Source of the DNA: Amycolatopsis australiensis
GTDB taxonomy: Bacteria > Actinomycetota > Actinomycetes > Mycobacteriales > Pseudonocardiaceae
Assembly (NCBI RefSeq): GCF_900119165.1
Contig: NZ_FPJG01000006.1
Coordinates: 5,456,001-5,520,000 of the forward strand
Direction of reading: 5' to 3'
DNA: 64,000 bases
Shown: in pieces, positions 8,683-57,585 of the stretch
Layout: each line of letters opens with the position of its first letter
Numbering within the stretch: the first letter of the stretch is position 1
Notes under the pieces: model-generated
The model's input: the letters and a program-made list of their open reading frames with translations, nothing else
Told to the model about the DNA's origin: nothing
Database searches by the model: none
Translations under genes and position numbers: made by a program

Positions 8683-10335
8683 TCACGTCCCGACCGCGCG
8701 GCGCTGGGCGGTGCCGCCGGGCAGGGCGGCCAGCAGGGACTTCGTGTACTCGTGCTGCGGGTCGAGCAGGACCTGCTCCACGGTCCCGGTTTCGACGAGC
8801 TCGCCGCGGTACATCACGGCGACCCGGTCGGCGATGTTCCAGGCCAGCCCGAGGTCGTGGGTGATCACGAGCGCGGCGAGGCCGAGTTCGCGGCGCAGCC
8901 GCAGCAGCAGCGCGAGGATCTCGCCGCGCACGGACGCGTCGAGCGAGGCGACCGGTTCGTCGGCCACCACCACCGACGGTTCGAGCGCCAGGGCACCGGC
9001 GATGACGACGCGCTGGCGCTGGCCGCCGGAGAGCTGGTGCGGCAGCCGGTCGGCGTATTTCTCCGCCGGCCGCAGCTCCGCGGCTTCCAGGGCGCGGTGG
9101 ACGACGGCGCGCTCGTCGGTCATGCCGTGGATCCGGGGGCCTTCGGCGACGGCTTCGTACACGGTGTGGGCCGGGTTCAAGGCACTGGTCGGGTCCTGCA
9201 GGACGAGCTGGACCTGTCGGCGGTAGGCCTTGAGGCCCGCGCCGCCCGCCGGCACCGGCCGGCCGGCGTAGCGGACCACGCCGGAGTCGGGTTTCTGCAG
9301 GCCGAGCAGGGTGCGCGCGAGGGTGGTCTTGCCGGAGCCGGACTGGCCGACCAGCGCGACGATTTCGTCGCGGGCGACGGCGAGGTCGACCCCGGCGACG
9401 GCGTCGATGCGCTTGCCGGTGCGGTCGCGGAACGACACGCGCAGGTTCTCCGCGGCCAGCAGCGGCTCTCCGCCGGTGACGCGGTCCGCCGGTTCGGGCG
9501 GCAGCGGGGTGGCGGTGGCCGGGGCGAAGCGGGACGCCGGGTCGCCGACGGTCGGGAACGCCGCGGCCAGCGCCCGGGTGTGCTCGTGCCGGGGCGCGGT
9601 CATCACTTCGGCGCTGGGGCCTTCTTCGACGATCTGCCCGTCGTACATGACGGCGATGCGTTCGCAGGTGGCGGCGAGCACCGACAGGTCGTGGCTGATC
9701 ATGATCAGGCCGATGTCCTGCTCGGCGACCAGCCGGGAGAGCAGGGCGAGGACCTGGGCCTGGACGATGACGTCGAGGGCGGTGGTCGGCTCGTCGGCGA
9801 TGATGAGCCGGGGCGAGCAAGCGAGGGCCATGGCGATCATGACGCGCTGCTTCTGCCCGCCGGACAGCTCGTGGGGGTAGGCGCCGGCGCGGCTCGGCGG
9901 CAGGTCGACCTGGGTGAGCAGCTCGGCGACGCGGGCGTCGACCTCGGCGTCGGTCGGGGTCTTCCCGCCGGGCGGGTGCAGCCGGATGGGCTCGGCGATC
10001 TGCTCGCCGATCTTGCGGACCGGGTTGAGGGCGTGCATGGCGCCCTGGAAGACGACGGACGCCTCGGCCCAGCGGACCGCGCGCAGCCGTCCCCATTTCA
10101 TGGCGGTGACGTCTTCGCCGTCGAGGACGATCTCGCCGGTGATCTTCGCGGTGCGCGGCAGCAGCCGCAGCACGCTCATCGCGACGGTGGACTTGCCGGA
10201 GCCGGATTCGCCGGCGACGCCGAGGGTGCCGCCGGGGTCGAGGGTGAGGCCGACCCCGCGGACGGCGGGCACTTCCTTCTCGCCCACGGCGTAGGTGACG
10301 GTGAGGTCCTTGAGCTGCAGCAGCGGGGTGGTCAC
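8683..10335 (-). CDS. Peptide ABC transporter, fused dual ATPase (DppD-DppF type)
   Basis: 550 residues carrying two complete ABC ATPase domains in one chain. Domain 1 (about 1-260): Walker [10 protein letters not shown], signature LSGGQ, Walker B LIIADEP. Domain 2 (about 280-530): [21 protein letters not shown]. Both domains have the C-terminal extension typical of oligopeptide/nickel importers. The GTG at 10335 overlaps the stop of the upstream permease (GTGA). It is the last gene of the order binding protein, permease, permease, ATPase. It should energise uptake of di- or oligopeptides through the two permeases beside it. Confidence 0.93.
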
Positions 10336-30967: not shown

Positions 30968-30994
30968 CGCGTTCCCCTTTCGTTCGATATCTCA

Positions 30995-31023
30995 ACGTTA
31001 GATATCTAACCATTAGATGTCAA
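30995..31023 (-). promoter_or_regulatory. Promoter of the NTF2/VOC/LLM operon with embedded MarR operator
   Basis: Minus strand TTGACA (31023-31018), a 17-base spacer and TAACGT (31000-30995) make a near-perfect housekeeping promoter. The perfect 14-base palindrome GTTAGATATCTAAC (30997-31010) covers the -10 and the spacer. Related half sites GATATCT (30986-30992) and TTAGATGTC (31013-31021) flank it. A dimer of the neighbouring MarR-family protein bound here would occlude this promoter. Confidence 0.75.
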
Positions 31024-31027
31024 ACGC

Positions 31028-31061
31028 TTAGACTTCTCCGCACCTGCGCTAAAGTCCACCC
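31028..31061 (+). promoter_or_regulatory. Promoter of the MarR gene, predicted leaderless
   Basis: TTAGAC (31028-31033), 16 bases, TAAAGT (31050-31055), six bases, then the GTG start at 31062. The two divergent promoters are back to back, so one repressor array could control both. Confidence 0.5.
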
Positions 31062-31493
31062 GTGCCAGCACCCGCCACCGCCCCCATCGGCGTCGTCCTC
31101 GCCCGCACCGCCAAAACCGCCGGCCGCGCCTTCGACCAGGCCCTCGCCGCCGCCGGCGGCTCCCAGCCCGTCTGGCAGATCCTCATCTCCCTCAAAACCA
31201 CCCCCGTCGCCAACCAGCGCGAACTCGCCGACGCCGTCGGCATCCAGGGCGCCACCCTCACCCACCACCTCAACGGCATGGAAGCCGCCGGCCTCGTCAC
31301 CCGCCGCCGCGACCCCGCCAACCGCCGCGTCCACCTCGTCGAACTCACCGACGACGGCGAACAGCTCTTCCACCGCCTCGCCTCGGCCGCCATCGCCCAC
31401 GACCAGCGACTCCGCCACGGCTTCACCGAAGCCGAGATCGCCCACCTCGCCGACCTCCTCCACCGCCTCGCCGCCAACGTCACCGACAGCTGA
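31062..31493 (+). CDS. MarR family transcriptional regulator
   Basis: 143 residues with a winged helix: the dimer helix at 10-30, recognition region NQRELADAVGIQGATLTHHLNGMEAAG (about 47-73) and the wing RRRDPANRRVHLVELTDDG (about 78-96, with the typical D-x-R-x-x-x-V pattern). It diverges from the NTF2/VOC/LLM operon, and the 94 bases between contain a perfect palindrome on the operon promoter. By family habit it represses both units and is released by a small ligand. The GTG at 31062 is supported by the leaderless -10. Confidence 0.9.
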   Translation: MPAPATAPIGVVLARTAKTAGRAFDQALAAAGGSQPVWQILISLKTTPVANQRELADAVGIQGATLTHHLNGMEAAGLVTRRRDPANRRVHLVELTDDGEQLFHRLASAAIAHDQRLRHGFTEAEIAHLADLLHRLAANVTDS

Positions 31494-52898: not shown

Positions 52899-55800
52899 TC
52901 AGGTGCGGATGATGGTGAAGGTGGATGTCGTGTTGCGGATGTCCTGGTCGTTGTCGCTCAGCGTCAGCCCGGTGAAGGTCGCCGAGCCGACGGCCGGGCC
53001 CTGGCCCGGTTCCGGCAGCTCGTTGGCCCAGATGCCGATCCCGGACTTGGCGTCGAAGGCGTCCCCGCTGCGGTGCGCGCCGGTGATCGACACGTTCGTC
53101 AGCACGGTGTCCTCGACCGGGTGCTCCGGCGTGGTGCCGTCGTACTTGGTCTGGAACATGACGCCGCTGTAGGTCGGGCTCTGGATGTCCACATCGGACA
53201 CCCGGATCCCGCGGAACTCCTTGGACGCGGAGAACAGCCAGATCGCCGGAAAGGTCTGCTGGCCCCAGAAGTGGCCGCCGTCGCGGACGAGGGAGGCGTT
53301 CTGGACCGTCGTCGGCGGCGGCCCGAACCCGAGGAACGGGTAGCCGAAGTCGAGCGAGCTGATCGTGATCGCCGAATACGTCAGCGTGTCGGCGATGTAG
53401 AAGTTGCGGAAGGTGTTGTTGTACCCGCCGTACACCGCGAGCCCGGCCGCGCGCCACGGGGTGAGCGAGGTCAGGTTCTCGAACACGTTGTCGTACTGGT
53501 TGCCCTGGTTGATGTCCGTGGCGGCGAACAGCGCGAAGCTGTCGTCGCCGGTGGACCGGGCCTCGTTGTTGGTGACGTGGTTGCCGGTGCTGCCGTTGGT
53601 GAGGTTGATCCCGTCGGCGAAGGTGTCGCGGATCCGGGAGTTCTTGATCGTCGTGTTGTCCACGTTGGTGCCCCACACCATCACGACCTGGTGCTCCACC
53701 CAGATGTTGTCGATGGTCAGGTTCGCGACATCGGTCAGGTTGAACACCTTGCCGGGGCCGTCGATCCGGGAAGTGTAGTTCCCGAACACGGCGAACCCGC
53801 TGAACGTCGAGCCGTTCGCGCTCGCCTGCACGTCGACGCCGATGTCGGTGTTCTCCTGCCCGGACGGCGCGGAGAACTTCGTGAACCACGGCCCCGCGCC
53901 GGTGACCGTCACGGGCTTGCCGTAGACGTTCAGCTTGCTCGAGAGCGAGTAGTTCCCGGCCGGCAGGTAGACCCCGGTGAGGGTGGTGTCCTGCCGCACC
54001 TTGTCGAGCGCGTTCTGCACGTCCTGCTGGGTGAAGCCGGCCGGGACCGCGAAGTGCGCCGGGTCCGGGTTGGCCTGCGCGGTGGCCAGCTCGAAGTTCA
54101 CGAAGTCGATCGCGTAGTTCGTGCTGTTGGCCGCGTCCTTCTGCAGCTTGATCTTGTGCCCGGCCGGCACGGTCGTGCCGAGCAGCATGCCGGCCTCGTC
54201 GTAGATGTGCCGCGGTCCGCTGCCCGGTGAATTGCCCGGCCCGGTTTCGGCGCCGTAGAGCCACGCGTAGTGCGAGGTCAGGTCGATCGCCTTGAGGAAG
54301 GTGCCGTCGACGTAGACGTTCAGCGTGGCGTTGATGCCACCGCCGCCCGGCGCGTCCGGGATGGAGAACCGCGTGACGAGCGTGTTGGTCGCCGCGCGGG
54401 TGGTGAACTCCACCGACGCGCCGGTCGAGTTCAGCGTCACGGCCCTGCGTCCCGACGCCTCGCCCGCGAGGTCGCCGATCGTGCGGTTCGGGCCGACCAC
54501 CGCGGCGCCGCCGGCGACCACGCCGTCCTCGGCCTCGTACATGTCGTAGGGCATGTTCGCGCCGCGGCCGACGAACAGCGCCTGCGTGCCGGTGTTGTTG
54601 CCCTGCTTCACCGGCAGCTCGTTGGCGTCGTTGGCGACGACGGTCTTGACGGTGTACCGGCCGTTGGCCGCGCTCCACGTGCCGACGGTGACGGGAGCCG
54701 CGGTCGCTCCGGGCGCGATGGTCCCGGTGTAGCTTCCGGTCAGCGTCTTCACGACGGTGCCGTTCTGGTCGGCGATCGTCACCGTGACGCCGTGCCCGCC
54801 GCCTGCCGACGCGATCGTGCCCTGGTTGCGCAGCGTCGTGCTGAAGGTGACGACGTTGCCCGCGGCGGGGTTGTCCGGCGACCACGAGGTGGCCGCGACG
54901 AGGTCGGAGCTCTGGACCGGGCTGACGACCAGCGCGGTGGAGGCGGTGTAGGAGTTGTTGGCCTCGTTCTGTTCGATGACGGCGTTGGCCTCGTCGACCT
55001 TCGCGGTCAGCTGGTAGCTGCCCGCGTCCCGGGTGCCGATGTTCGCCGACACCGTCGTGGACGCGCCGGCGGCGAGCGCGCCGACGTTCGCGGTGCCGAC
55101 CTTGGTGGTGCCCAGGTAGAGGTTGACGTTCGTCGCGCCCGAGGCGGCCGTCCCGGCGTTGCGGACGGTCGCGGACGCGGTGATCGCGTCGGTCTCCACG
55201 GGGTTCTGCGGCGACCACGACACACCCGAGATCGTCAGGTCGGGGTTCGGCGCCGGGACGCCGAAGACCTGGAACTCCGCGGCCTGCCCGCCGCCGGCCC
55301 CGGAGTTGGCGGTGACGCGCAAGCGGACGTCGGCGGCGCGGCCGCCCACGGGGATCGTCACGGTGTTGCCGGTCGCGGGGTCGAAGCCGTAGGTCTGCGC
55401 GGGCACGAGCGTGGTGAACGCCGAGCTGCTCTGCTCACGGCCTTCGACGGCGATCGTCTGCGTCCGCGGGCCCCAGGCCGGGTCGGGGTTGAGCTTGACG
55501 ACGACCTGGTTCAGGTCGGCGTTCGAGCCGAGCGCGACGGTCAGCAGGTTCGGGTAGGTGCCGCCACCGCCCTCCCAGTACGTGGTCAGGGAGTTGTCGT
55601 TGGCGTTCGCGGCGACGAAGTCGTACTGCGCCGAAGACGCCGTGATGGGCTTGCCGAGCGCGAGGTTCGTGCCGGCCTGGGTGCCGGTGCGCGTCACGGT
55701 GTTGCTGTTCGCCGACTGGTTGCCCGCCGCGTCTTTCGCGCGGACGAAGTAGGCGACGGTCGCGCTGTCGGGCTGGCTGTCGGTGTAGGTCAGGACGTTT

Positions 55801-56486
55801 CCGGCGACGCTGCCGCGGAGCTGGCCGTTGGCGTAGACGTCGTAGCCGGTGACGCCGGTGTTGTCGGTCGAGGCCGACCAGGTGAGCCGGATCTGGCCGC
55901 TCGACGGCTGGGTGTAGGCGAGGTTGCCCGGCGCCGACGGCGGCTGCGTGTCCCCGCCGGCCGGGCCGTGCACCTCGAACTCGGACAGCTGCGCGGCGGG
56001 CCAGCCGGTGTTGGCGCTGACGTTCAACCGGACGAACCGGGGCTTGCCGGTGACGTCCACGGTGACCGTGTTGGCCTTGGCCGGGTCGAACAGGTAGCCG
56101 GCCGAGGGCTTCAGGTCGGTGAAGGTCGTCCCGTCGGTGCTGCCCTGCACGCTGAAGGTCTCGGTGCGGGCGCCCCAGTTCGCGACGGGCAGCTTGAGCA
56201 CGAGCTGCGCGACGTCCGTGGGGGCGCCGAGGTCGGCCTGGATCCATTGCGGGAACTGGTTGTTGGTGCTTTCCCAGTAGGTGTCCTGGTTCCCGTCGCC
56301 GGCGTTCGAGGCGGGATAGCCGGCGAGCTGGCTGCTGGCGGTGTAGGTGGCGACGGCGGCTTGGGCGGCGGGCTGGACGGCCGGGGCGGCCGCGGGCGTG
56401 GCGCTCGCCGGGACGGCGGGGGTGGCCAGGACGAGGGACAGGGCGGCGCAGGTCGCCGCGCGCGACAGAAGTCGCTTCGTTCTCAT
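52899..56486 (-). CDS. Secreted multidomain GH87-type alpha-1,3-glucanase
   Basis: 1195 residues. AGAGGAACCCC precedes the ATG. Order: signal peptide 1-30; discoidin domain about 45-175; FN3 about 185-265; second discoidin about 270-415; two CARDB domains about 420-640; a CBM-like segment starting YEAEDGVVAGGAA about 650-790; then a right-handed beta-helix to the end. The helix carries ADGINLTNGSTGNHV (Asp958) and STGDDSFALF (Asp981, Asp982). The 23-residue gap and adjacent Asp pair equal the catalytic triad of GH87 enzyme Agl-KA as I recall it (1067, 1090, 1091). Expected substrate: alpha-1,3-glucan of fungal walls or dental-type mutan. Confidence 0.8.
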   Translation of the reverse strand: MRTKRLLSRAATCAALSLVLATPAVPASATPAAAPAVQPAAQAAVATYTASSQLAGYPASNAGDGNQDTYWESTNNQFPQWIQADLGAPTDVAQLVLKLPVANWGARTETFSVQGSTDGTTFTDLKPSAGYLFDPAKANTVTVDVTGKPRFVRLNVSANTGWPAAQLSEFEVHGPAGGDTQPPSAPGNLAYTQPSSGQIRLTWSASTDNTGVTGYDVYANGQLRGSVAGNVLTYTDSQPDSATVAYFVRAKDAAGNQSANSNTVTRTGTQAGTNLALGKPITASSAQYDFVAANANDNSLTTYWEGGGGTYPNLLTVALGSNADLNQVVVKLNPDPAWGPRTQTIAVEGREQSSSAFTTLVPAQTYGFDPATGNTVTIPVGGRAADVRLRVTANSGAGGGQAAEFQVFGVPAPNPDLTISGVSWSPQNPVETDAITASATVRNAGTAASGATNVNLYLGTTKVGTANVGALAAGASTTVSANIGTRDAGSYQLTAKVDEANAVIEQNEANNSYTASTALVVSPVQSSDLVAATSWSPDNPAAGNVVTFSTTLRNQGTIASAGGGHGVTVTIADQNGTVVKTLTGSYTGTIAPGATAAPVTVGTWSAANGRYTVKTVVANDANELPVKQGNNTGTQALFVGRGANMPYDMYEAEDGVVAGGAAVVGPNRTIGDLAGEASGRRAVTLNSTGASVEFTTRAATNTLVTRFSIPDAPGGGGINATLNVYVDGTFLKAIDLTSHYAWLYGAETGPGNSPGSGPRHIYDEAGMLLGTTVPAGHKIKLQKDAANSTNYAIDFVNFELATAQANPDPAHFAVPAGFTQQDVQNALDKVRQDTTLTGVYLPAGNYSLSSKLNVYGKPVTVTGAGPWFTKFSAPSGQENTDIGVDVQASANGSTFSGFAVFGNYTSRIDGPGKVFNLTDVANLTIDNIWVEHQVVMVWGTNVDNTTIKNSRIRDTFADGINLTNGSTGNHVTNNEARSTGDDSFALFAATDINQGNQYDNVFENLTSLTPWRAAGLAVYGGYNNTFRNFYIADTLTYSAITISSLDFGYPFLGFGPPPTTVQNASLVRDGGHFWGQQTFPAIWLFSASKEFRGIRVSDVDIQSPTYSGVMFQTKYDGTTPEHPVEDTVLTNVSITGAHRSGDAFDAKSGIGIWANELPEPGQGPAVGSATFTGLTLSDNDQDIRNTTSTFTIIRT

Positions 56487-56735
56487 GGGGTTCCTCTGAT
56501 CCGGGGAGGGAGGGAGACGGGTGGAGACGAGCAGAACCGGGGAACGGACGCAGCGGGCGCGGTCCGGTGGCGCGCGCGGGCAGCACGGAACAGCCGTCAT
56601 GGGCACCTCTTCGTCGAGGGCTGGGCAGGATGTTCCTGACAGTTGCCTTGATTTCTCGTCGATCTGTCAGGTTCTTGCACTGATTCGTTCAAGAGTTACA
56701 GTGACGTGGGTCTCAAGTCAACGCCCGGACGCCGA
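56487..56735. promoter_or_regulatory. Upstream region of the GH87 gene with a spaced inverted repeat
   Basis: The 250 bases upstream of the glucanase hold no supported gene. An inverted repeat CCTGACAG (56635-56642) ... CTGTCAGG (56664-56671), arms 21 bases apart, lies 149-185 bases before the start, in an AT-richer stretch that also has TCTTG...CAAGA arms (56673-56697). It is a candidate regulator site for the glucanase. Confidence 0.4.
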
Positions 56736-56767
56736 AAGGCCTCCTCGCGGGGAGGCGAGGAGGCCTT
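56736..56767 (-). terminator. Hairpin terminator behind the HxlR gene and its tail repeats
   Basis: AAGGCCTCCTCGC and GCGAGGAGGCCTT form a perfect 13-base stem with a six-base loop. On the minus strand it follows the HxlR gene and the tandem repeat array, ahead of the glucanase promoter. Confidence 0.75.
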
Positions 56768-56826
56768 GGCAGCGAAGTTTCTGGCGGAGGGAGGTGGGGT
56801 GGATCGCCGCGCGGGCGCCCACGAAG

Positions 56827-57160
56827 CTCAGCGCCTGGCGCCGAGCCGGATCCCGGGATCCCGGCGCGCGGGCGCCCCCGGAATGTCAGCGCACGCCGGA
56901 GCTGGATCGCACGAGAATCGGGCGCGCAGGCCTTCCGCGCCTGGCGCCGAGCCGGATCGCGGGATCCCGGGCGCAGGCCACCGACCGCAGGGCACCGCAC
57001 CGCGCCCAGCCGGATCGCGAAGATCCCGAGGCGCAGGCCAACCGCGGAATGTCAGCGCACGGCGCCCAGCCGCATCACGCGAACACCGAGCGCGCAGCCG
57101 TCCCGCCGCAGCTCAGCGCACGGCGCCCAGGCGGATCGCGCGGGTGCCGGGTGCGTCGGC
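56827..57160 (-). repeat. Degenerate tandem copies of the 3' end of the HxlR gene
   Basis: Six imperfect units of about 50-61 bases start near 56827, 56885, 56935, 56991, 57051 and 57112, sharing the core GCGCCCAGCCGGATCGCG. The last unit is the real end of the HxlR gene: on the minus strand its core encodes IRLGAVR and the stop. The other units, read the same way, still spell IRLGARR-stop, VMRLGAVR-stop or close variants. The array is therefore a duplicated gene tail lying in the 3' untranslated region between the stop (57113) and the terminator (56767). Confidence 0.75.
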
Positions 57161-57550
57161 CGGGTCGCCGCAGTGCGCGCAGACCGTCGCCGGTGTCAGT
57201 ACCTCGCCGCATGCGTGGCGCCACAACGTCGGCGGTTCGCCCCGGTGGACGTACTTGTCGCCCCATGCCATCAACCCCAGCAGGATCGGCTGCAACGCGC
57301 GGCCGGCCTCGGTCGGGTAGTACTCGAAGCGCGGTGGGTGGTCCTCGTACTGCACCTTCTCGAGCACGCCCGCGTCGACGAGCTTGCGCAGCCGGGCCGC
57401 CAGGATGTCTCGGCTGGCGCCGGTGTTCTCCGCGATCCGGTTGAACCGCCGCTCGCCCAGCATGATCTCGCGCAGCGCCAGCAGGCTCCAGCGTTCGCCG
57501 ACGACCTCGAGGGCCTCGGCGACCGAGCATTCGCGACCGCGCCGGACCAT
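57113..57550 (-). CDS. HxlR family transcriptional regulator
   Basis: 145 residues; GGGAGGTGGC directly before the ATG at 57550. HxlR winged helix: CSVAEALEVVGERWSLLALR (the conserved Cys and W-x-L-L), FNRIAENTGASRDILAARLR (recognition) and the wing YEDHPPRFEYYPTEAGRAL. A C-terminal CGEVLTPATVCAHC segment could bind a metal. It diverges from the thiolase gene; the inverted repeat GAGTTG-N7-CAACTC sits on the thiolase -35. Likely a repressor of the thiolase that senses redox or a metabolite through the Cys. Confidence 0.93.
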   Translation of the reverse strand: MVRRGRECSVAEALEVVGERWSLLALREIMLGERRFNRIAENTGASRDILAARLRKLVDAGVLEKVQYEDHPPRFEYYPTEAGRALQPILLGLMAWGDKYVHRGEPPTLWRHACGEVLTPATVCAHCGDPADAPGTRAIRLGAVR

Positions 57551-57585
57551 GCCACCTCCCTGGGATTGAAAACCCAACCTAGCAC

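Follow-up and report, generated by a model that had tools for sequence, protein, structure and literature searches.

According to the available part of a survey, 42.6% of bacterial satellites have units of over 30 nt (PMC6749651). The intergenic minisatellites and VNTRs of C. difficile, as described there, consist of tandem units longer than 30 nt that occupy one place without dispersed relatives. The array described here, which lies 3' of an hxlR-type regulator gene (hxlR), is similar in these respects. It differs from such general minisatellites, as that part of the survey presents them, in having a founder that can be traced to a gene end with its stop codon, and in its degenerate units (PMC6749651).

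A second described system is the array between rnc and fpg1 of M. tuberculosis (ETR-F / VNTR3239). Its intergenic region measures 279-358 bp, compared to 1-54 bp in other mycobacteria, and the array length goes with fpg1 expression (PMC2734929, in the part of the article at hand). Like the hxlR array, it is clade-specific and located behind a gene. In contrast to the hxlR array, its repeats are exact, begin 40 bp past the rnc stop and reach the start of the next gene, and the same part of the article does not describe them as derived from rnc (PMC2734929). In the open-access literature, no paper was found on bacterial arrays copied from a gene end including the stop, nor on HxlR with a tandem repeat in Amycolatopsis. 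The first-pass annotation had stated that no case of this kind was described. As to the kind of array this does not hold, given the M. tuberculosis array and two further loci found here (L162 and L030, see below); for repeats that cross a stop codon, the statement stands within the open-access literature.

Layout of the array and its surroundings

In the window, i.e. the whole 64-kb stretch of DNA that was analysed, hxlR is followed on the minus strand by its own 3' coding end in five full copies and a partial one. The features of the locus are as follows.

57113..57550, minus: hxlR-type transcriptional regulator gene (Pfam PF01638, E 5.8e-23, and orthologues)
57113..57176, minus: segment from which the repeat derives, the hxlR 3' coding end including its TGA stop; certain over the last ~26 nt, suggestive for the remainder
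57052..57112, minus: copy c1, 61 nt; reads VMRLGAVR-stop, stop in the +1 frame relative to hxlR
56992..57051, minus: copy c2, 60 nt; keeps an IRLGAVR/IRLGARR-type end, stop lost (TGC)
56934..56991, minus: copy c3, 58 nt; keeps an IRLGAVR/IRLGARR-type end, stop lost (GGA)
56886..56933, minus: copy c4, 48 nt; 5' part missing, stop kept in the +2 frame, peptide disrupted
56828..56885, minus: copy c5, 58 nt; IRLGARR-stop, in frame with hxlR
56798..56827, minus: partial copy c6, 30 nt; compare repeat family D5
56736..56767, minus: terminator-like hairpin, 13-bp perfect stem (arms 56736-56748 and 56755-56767), 6-nt loop
56714..56721, minus: TTGACTTG, conserved promoter-like box ahead of the alpha-1,3-glucanase gene, used as anchor
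52899..56606, minus: downstream neighbour, alpha-1,3-glucanase (CatAgl D1/D2; Pfam)

The tiling c1 to c6 is anchored on the hxlR stop codon; an alternative phase, U1 to U6 (47-61 nt), includes the gene tail. The hxlR start (ATG at 57550) was picked by eye from the match in relatives, and an upstream TTG at 57577 is also open. The peptides that the first-pass annotation had read in c1 and c5 were confirmed by reading the copies. Copies c2 and c3 keep IRLGAVR / IRLGARR, both without a stop.

The repeat is located where it had been reported, with degenerate units that share a core. TRF places it at 56943-57140 with a period of 60, 3.3 copies, 77% matches and a score of 216, compared to 66 for the next-highest score within the window. 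The 15 pairs among U1 to U6 score 19-58.5, with 66-91% identity over aligned columns. For 2961 random pairs of 59-nt segments drawn from the window outside the array region, the mean is 1.6, the 99th percentile 21 and the maximum 36. Ten unit pairs exceed this maximum, one equals it and four are below (U1/U5 33, U2/U4 30, U3/U5 25, U4/U5 19). The alignment of the six units against random segments, as proposed in the first-pass annotation, hence finds identity beyond chance, and the head-to-tail arrangement of units of ~10-100 bp is that of a minisatellite. The G+C content of the array is 0.77, compared to 0.61 in the neighbouring intergenic stretch, which is consistent with a coding origin.

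The perfect hairpin that had been noted after the array is present 30 nt past the partial copy c6, and the 71-nt stretch holding it folds with z -4.78. A like hairpin is found by eye directly after hxlR in most relatives, mostly between the stop and TTGACTTG. A sigma-70 promoter and simple terminator scan of the region was empty. This says little, since the same scan also missed the TTGACTTG box and the hairpin, the latter presumably owing to the shortness of the T run after its stem. The glucanase promoter region in the window (56650-56721, TTGACTTGAGACC...GTCACTGTAACTCTTGAACGAATC) appears strongly conserved by eye across the relatives shown.

Descent from the hxlR tail and absence in relatives

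On the minus strand, hxlR ends in ...AIRLGAVR-TGA at 57113. The view that the unit nearest the gene is the coding end of hxlR itself is borne out by local alignment of the last 90 nt of the gene with the array, which scores 49, compared to 33 for the best of 500 shuffles. The best alignment of the gene tail with c1 spans 61 columns. Homology between array and gene is certain for the final ~26 nt of hxlR. When tested alone, the gene segment preceding these 26 nt gives p 0.059 for c1 and p 0.17-0.80 for c2 to c5, which is only suggestive of this part as a repeat source. Since it matches only c1, at p 0.059, the full coding origin of the unit is left between two readings: the whole unit may be coding tail, or it may be tail plus old UTR. 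In either form, the hxlR tail is the source of the array.

Orthologous loci were collected from 60 relatives (58 with some HxlR match; loci from the 30 best matches), from 80 genomes of the genus (73 with any DNA match; loci again from the 30 best matches) and from a named genome collection (70 loci, the close named ones being Amycolatopsis). At least 70% identity was required and identical stretches were removed, which left 30 distinct orthologues besides the hxlR under study. Their C-termini read IRLGAV[R/H] in 26 cases (some with one more residue), VRLGAV[R/H] in three and VRLGVVR in one. The distance from the stop to TTGACTTG is 56-80 nt in 28/30, compared to 391 nt here; the remaining two, L039 and L013, showed no such box in the first 400 nt past the stop. 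No such array is present in any of the 28 orthologues that retain the promoter box. Because the orthologues carry the same tail without the array, the gene end is old and the array new, and ~330 bp were added in the lineage of this genome. The duplication across the stop from the hxlR tail, as proposed by the first-pass annotation, is supported by this comparison.

In a FastTree reconstruction of hxlR plus thiolase (55 sequences, midpoint root, branch support left aside), the genome is nested among array-less relatives, the nearest by distance being L041 at 0.16. Two genomes (L133, L134), which are the best DNA matches among those listed from the 80 genus genomes, were compared at four-fold sites of four genes each. 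They differ at 0.23-0.37 of these sites in hxlR, thiolase and glucanase, and at 0.29 and 0.45 in ligD. The 80 genus genomes yielded no second strain of the species, the best other match being 89% over 181 nt. Given unit identities of 66-91% and four-fold differences of 0.23-0.45, neutral drift since the split would be sufficient: the unit divergence of 9-34% is compatible with duplication after the split followed by drift, and no special rate would be needed.

Across the wider hxlR family, a TRF repeat beginning before the stop is found at two of 103 distinct loci (one additional locus was dropped for its short flank), namely the locus under study, which is counted in the 103, and L030. The tail test at the same loci also gives p <=0.02 for L050, L103 and L113, all without a TRF array; the match in L050 is located ~290 nt behind the stop, and L103 and L113 have p 0.02 each. 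Within the loci returned, the array seems confined to one locus and one lineage, as expected of a minisatellite.

Origin and possible functions of the array

The array is very probably a lineage-specific intergenic minisatellite that was seeded by a tandem duplication happening to cross a stop codon. A chance duplication, by slippage or unequal recombination, would have taken in the last part of hxlR together with its stop codon. Through further rounds, the five full copies and the partial one would have arisen in the interval from the stop to the old terminator, and these would have drifted since. The 3' untranslated part of the hxlR message would have been lengthened by ~300 nt, most likely without other effect, and we infer that the array has no function. 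The event is ordinary in kind, but its history can be read unusually well. With the ancestral state known from about thirty relatives, the locus shows the birth of a bacterial minisatellite from a gene end and its decay. It also advises caution, as copies downstream of a gene that seem to make sense do not necessarily serve as a device for reading or at the RNA level. The first-pass annotation was partly supported overall: its observation is confirmed and the origin it gave is right, while neither of the two functions it considered finds support.

One of these functions was a stop-codon backup, in which ribosomes passing the hxlR stop would end at a copied C-terminus. The hxlR frame is indeed open for 94 residues past the stop and closes at c5 as ...GIRLGARR-stop, and in-frame copied stops are found as the 15th codon in L030 and the 18th in L162 (by hand). 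Against this, c1 and c4 carry their stops in frames other than that of hxlR, c2 and c3 (2/5 copies) have lost theirs, and the next in-frame stop is only the 95th codon, in c5. By a hand estimate from base composition, 95 codons at 77% G+C would stay open by chance about one time in three, and a third of all copies would fall in frame with hxlR anyway. A 94-residue tail is not a faithful backup of the C-terminus either, and the 28 orthologues with the promoter box are array-less. A close in-frame second stop that is kept in relatives, as expected of programmed read-through or backup, is lacking, and such a role is very unlikely. The other function, an mRNA 3' element, can be widened to tuning of the hxlR mRNA or the glucanase gene, either by an RNA element in the 3' UTR or by a repeated binding site for a protein; it is somewhat less remote although still unlikely. 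The core is more alike than the remainder of the unit, and the expression correlate of the M. tuberculosis array, as given in the available part of that article (PMC2734929), would be a precedent. The 300-nt array, in contrast, folds with z +1.03, with 171/200 shuffles folding at least equally well. The six single units range from z -0.97 to +1.18, and no Rfam family matches the array at E up to 1. The array hence displays neither a fold beyond shuffles nor a known family, as a structured cis-regulatory RNA would. Furthermore, the hairpin and the promoter box stand between the array and the glucanase gene.

Similarity is higher in the last 26 columns than in the remaining ones (0.81 vs 0.61; p 0.003 for a fixed split, 0.034 for any window). 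For the five copies alone, the excess has p 0.011 with a fixed split and 0.14 with the window free, the latter value speaking against an RNA or binding element. This higher identity hints weakly at constraint or conversion and is the main finding that counts against a wholly neutral account; a plain alternative is that the junction of each new duplication shifted slightly within the other half of the unit. A much stronger core conservation, with 0/20000 shuffles when gaps were counted as differences, was considered and rejected: dropping columns with more than one gap gives p 0.003-0.018, and a free window weakens this further to 0.034-0.16.

Two other accounts concern where the sequence came from. 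The array could have preceded the gene, hxlR having gained its C-terminus by running into it, and the sequence shared by gene end and array would agree with this. It is refuted by the orthologues, which end in the same tail without such an array, and is highly improbable. Alternatively, a repeat of a MIRU- or REP-like family, mobile or dispersed, could have inserted behind hxlR. The size range of MIRU units includes ~60 nt, so the unit would fit. The unit is gene-derived, though, and no second array was found in the genome when 40 of 220 first-look candidates were scored, which gave one other match of 44 nt. A longer query returned four other short weak matches in the same genome (28-44 nt, E 5e-5 to 6e-4), one of which (L002) falls, judged by eye, close to where an unrelated coding sequence begins; short weak matches of the same sort are listed in many other genomes, too. 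Related copies at many loci, as in MIRU- or REP-like families, thus appear to be absent, and insertion of such an element is the least probable of all accounts.

Similar events and other repeats

In the same genome, a 54-bp near-perfect tandem duplication across a stop is found at L162 (G000:C6:2600001-2620000, ~9470-9580). The duplicated block takes in the stop of an AraC/GlxA-like regulator gene (named by eye from its translation) together with a small hairpin. The copy is in frame, and read-through would add 17 residues ending in the same C-terminus. L162 resembles the hxlR array in its tandem duplication crossing a stop codon; unlike the array, it has one extra copy of 54 bp that is nearly perfect and also carries 3' UTR. 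The second case, L030 (genome G036), is a distant hxlR homologue (58% identity) from another family of the order. Its 22-bp tail array (2.7 copies) begins 14 nt ahead of the stop and extends 47 nt past it. Like the locus in the window, L030 is of the hxlR family and has the tail repeated across the stop (CTCATCCGCGACTG three times in L030); the shorter unit, lower copy number and unrelated sequence of L030 set it apart as an independent event.

Gene tails were compared with the next 300 nt in 1.66 Mb of this genome, with a score threshold of 40. Scores of at least 40 are reached by two of 1047 sampled gene tails (hxlR and L162), one of 1047 heads and three of 711 middles; a third tail scores 38, without the stop. 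In G036, 0/276 tails, 0/276 heads and 0/188 middles score at least 40, its own hxlR with the 22-bp array being outside the tested sample and scoring only 30 by the same measure. As far as these small numbers tell, gene ends show no clear excess compared to starts or middles, and stop-crossing duplications are about as frequent as others. The broader proposal that stop-inclusive tail copying is a recurrent actinobacterial route to long 3' UTRs and, after loss of the stop, to new C-terminal extensions that close with a copied version of the former C-terminus, with the hxlR array as an advanced example under weak core selection, is offered as a long shot.

TRF on 864 kb of the genome finds many other arrays of at least 30 nt, some of them intergenic, and a few within some tens of bases of a gene 3' end (rough gene call from codon-position G+C). 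For eight other array/gene-end pairings in the genome sample, descent from the gene tail is not significant (p 0.108-0.998); five arrays were left out of this test (L157, L153, L137, L148, and L162 at 1229). Apparently intergenic arrays in G000 with units of 30-85 bp are found at L139 13127-13372, L155 7148-7332, L147 3354-3532, L156 6249-6464 and L151 5613-5762. The first three begin 29-43 nt behind the stop of a predicted gene, and the tail test of the genes nearest to all five gave no sign of descent. Unrelated intergenic arrays are also located behind distant hxlR homologues, namely in L130 (42 bp x 3.1, 3-131 nt past the stop) and L127 (43 bp x 2.7, 35-150 nt past the stop). Within the window itself, TRF finds a 15-bp unit in 3.5 copies at 30981-31032, between divergent reading frames, with palindromes resembling TTAGATATCTAA. 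This repeat adjoins a MarR-looking regulator gene (31062-31493, plus strand, by eye) and is probably its operator.
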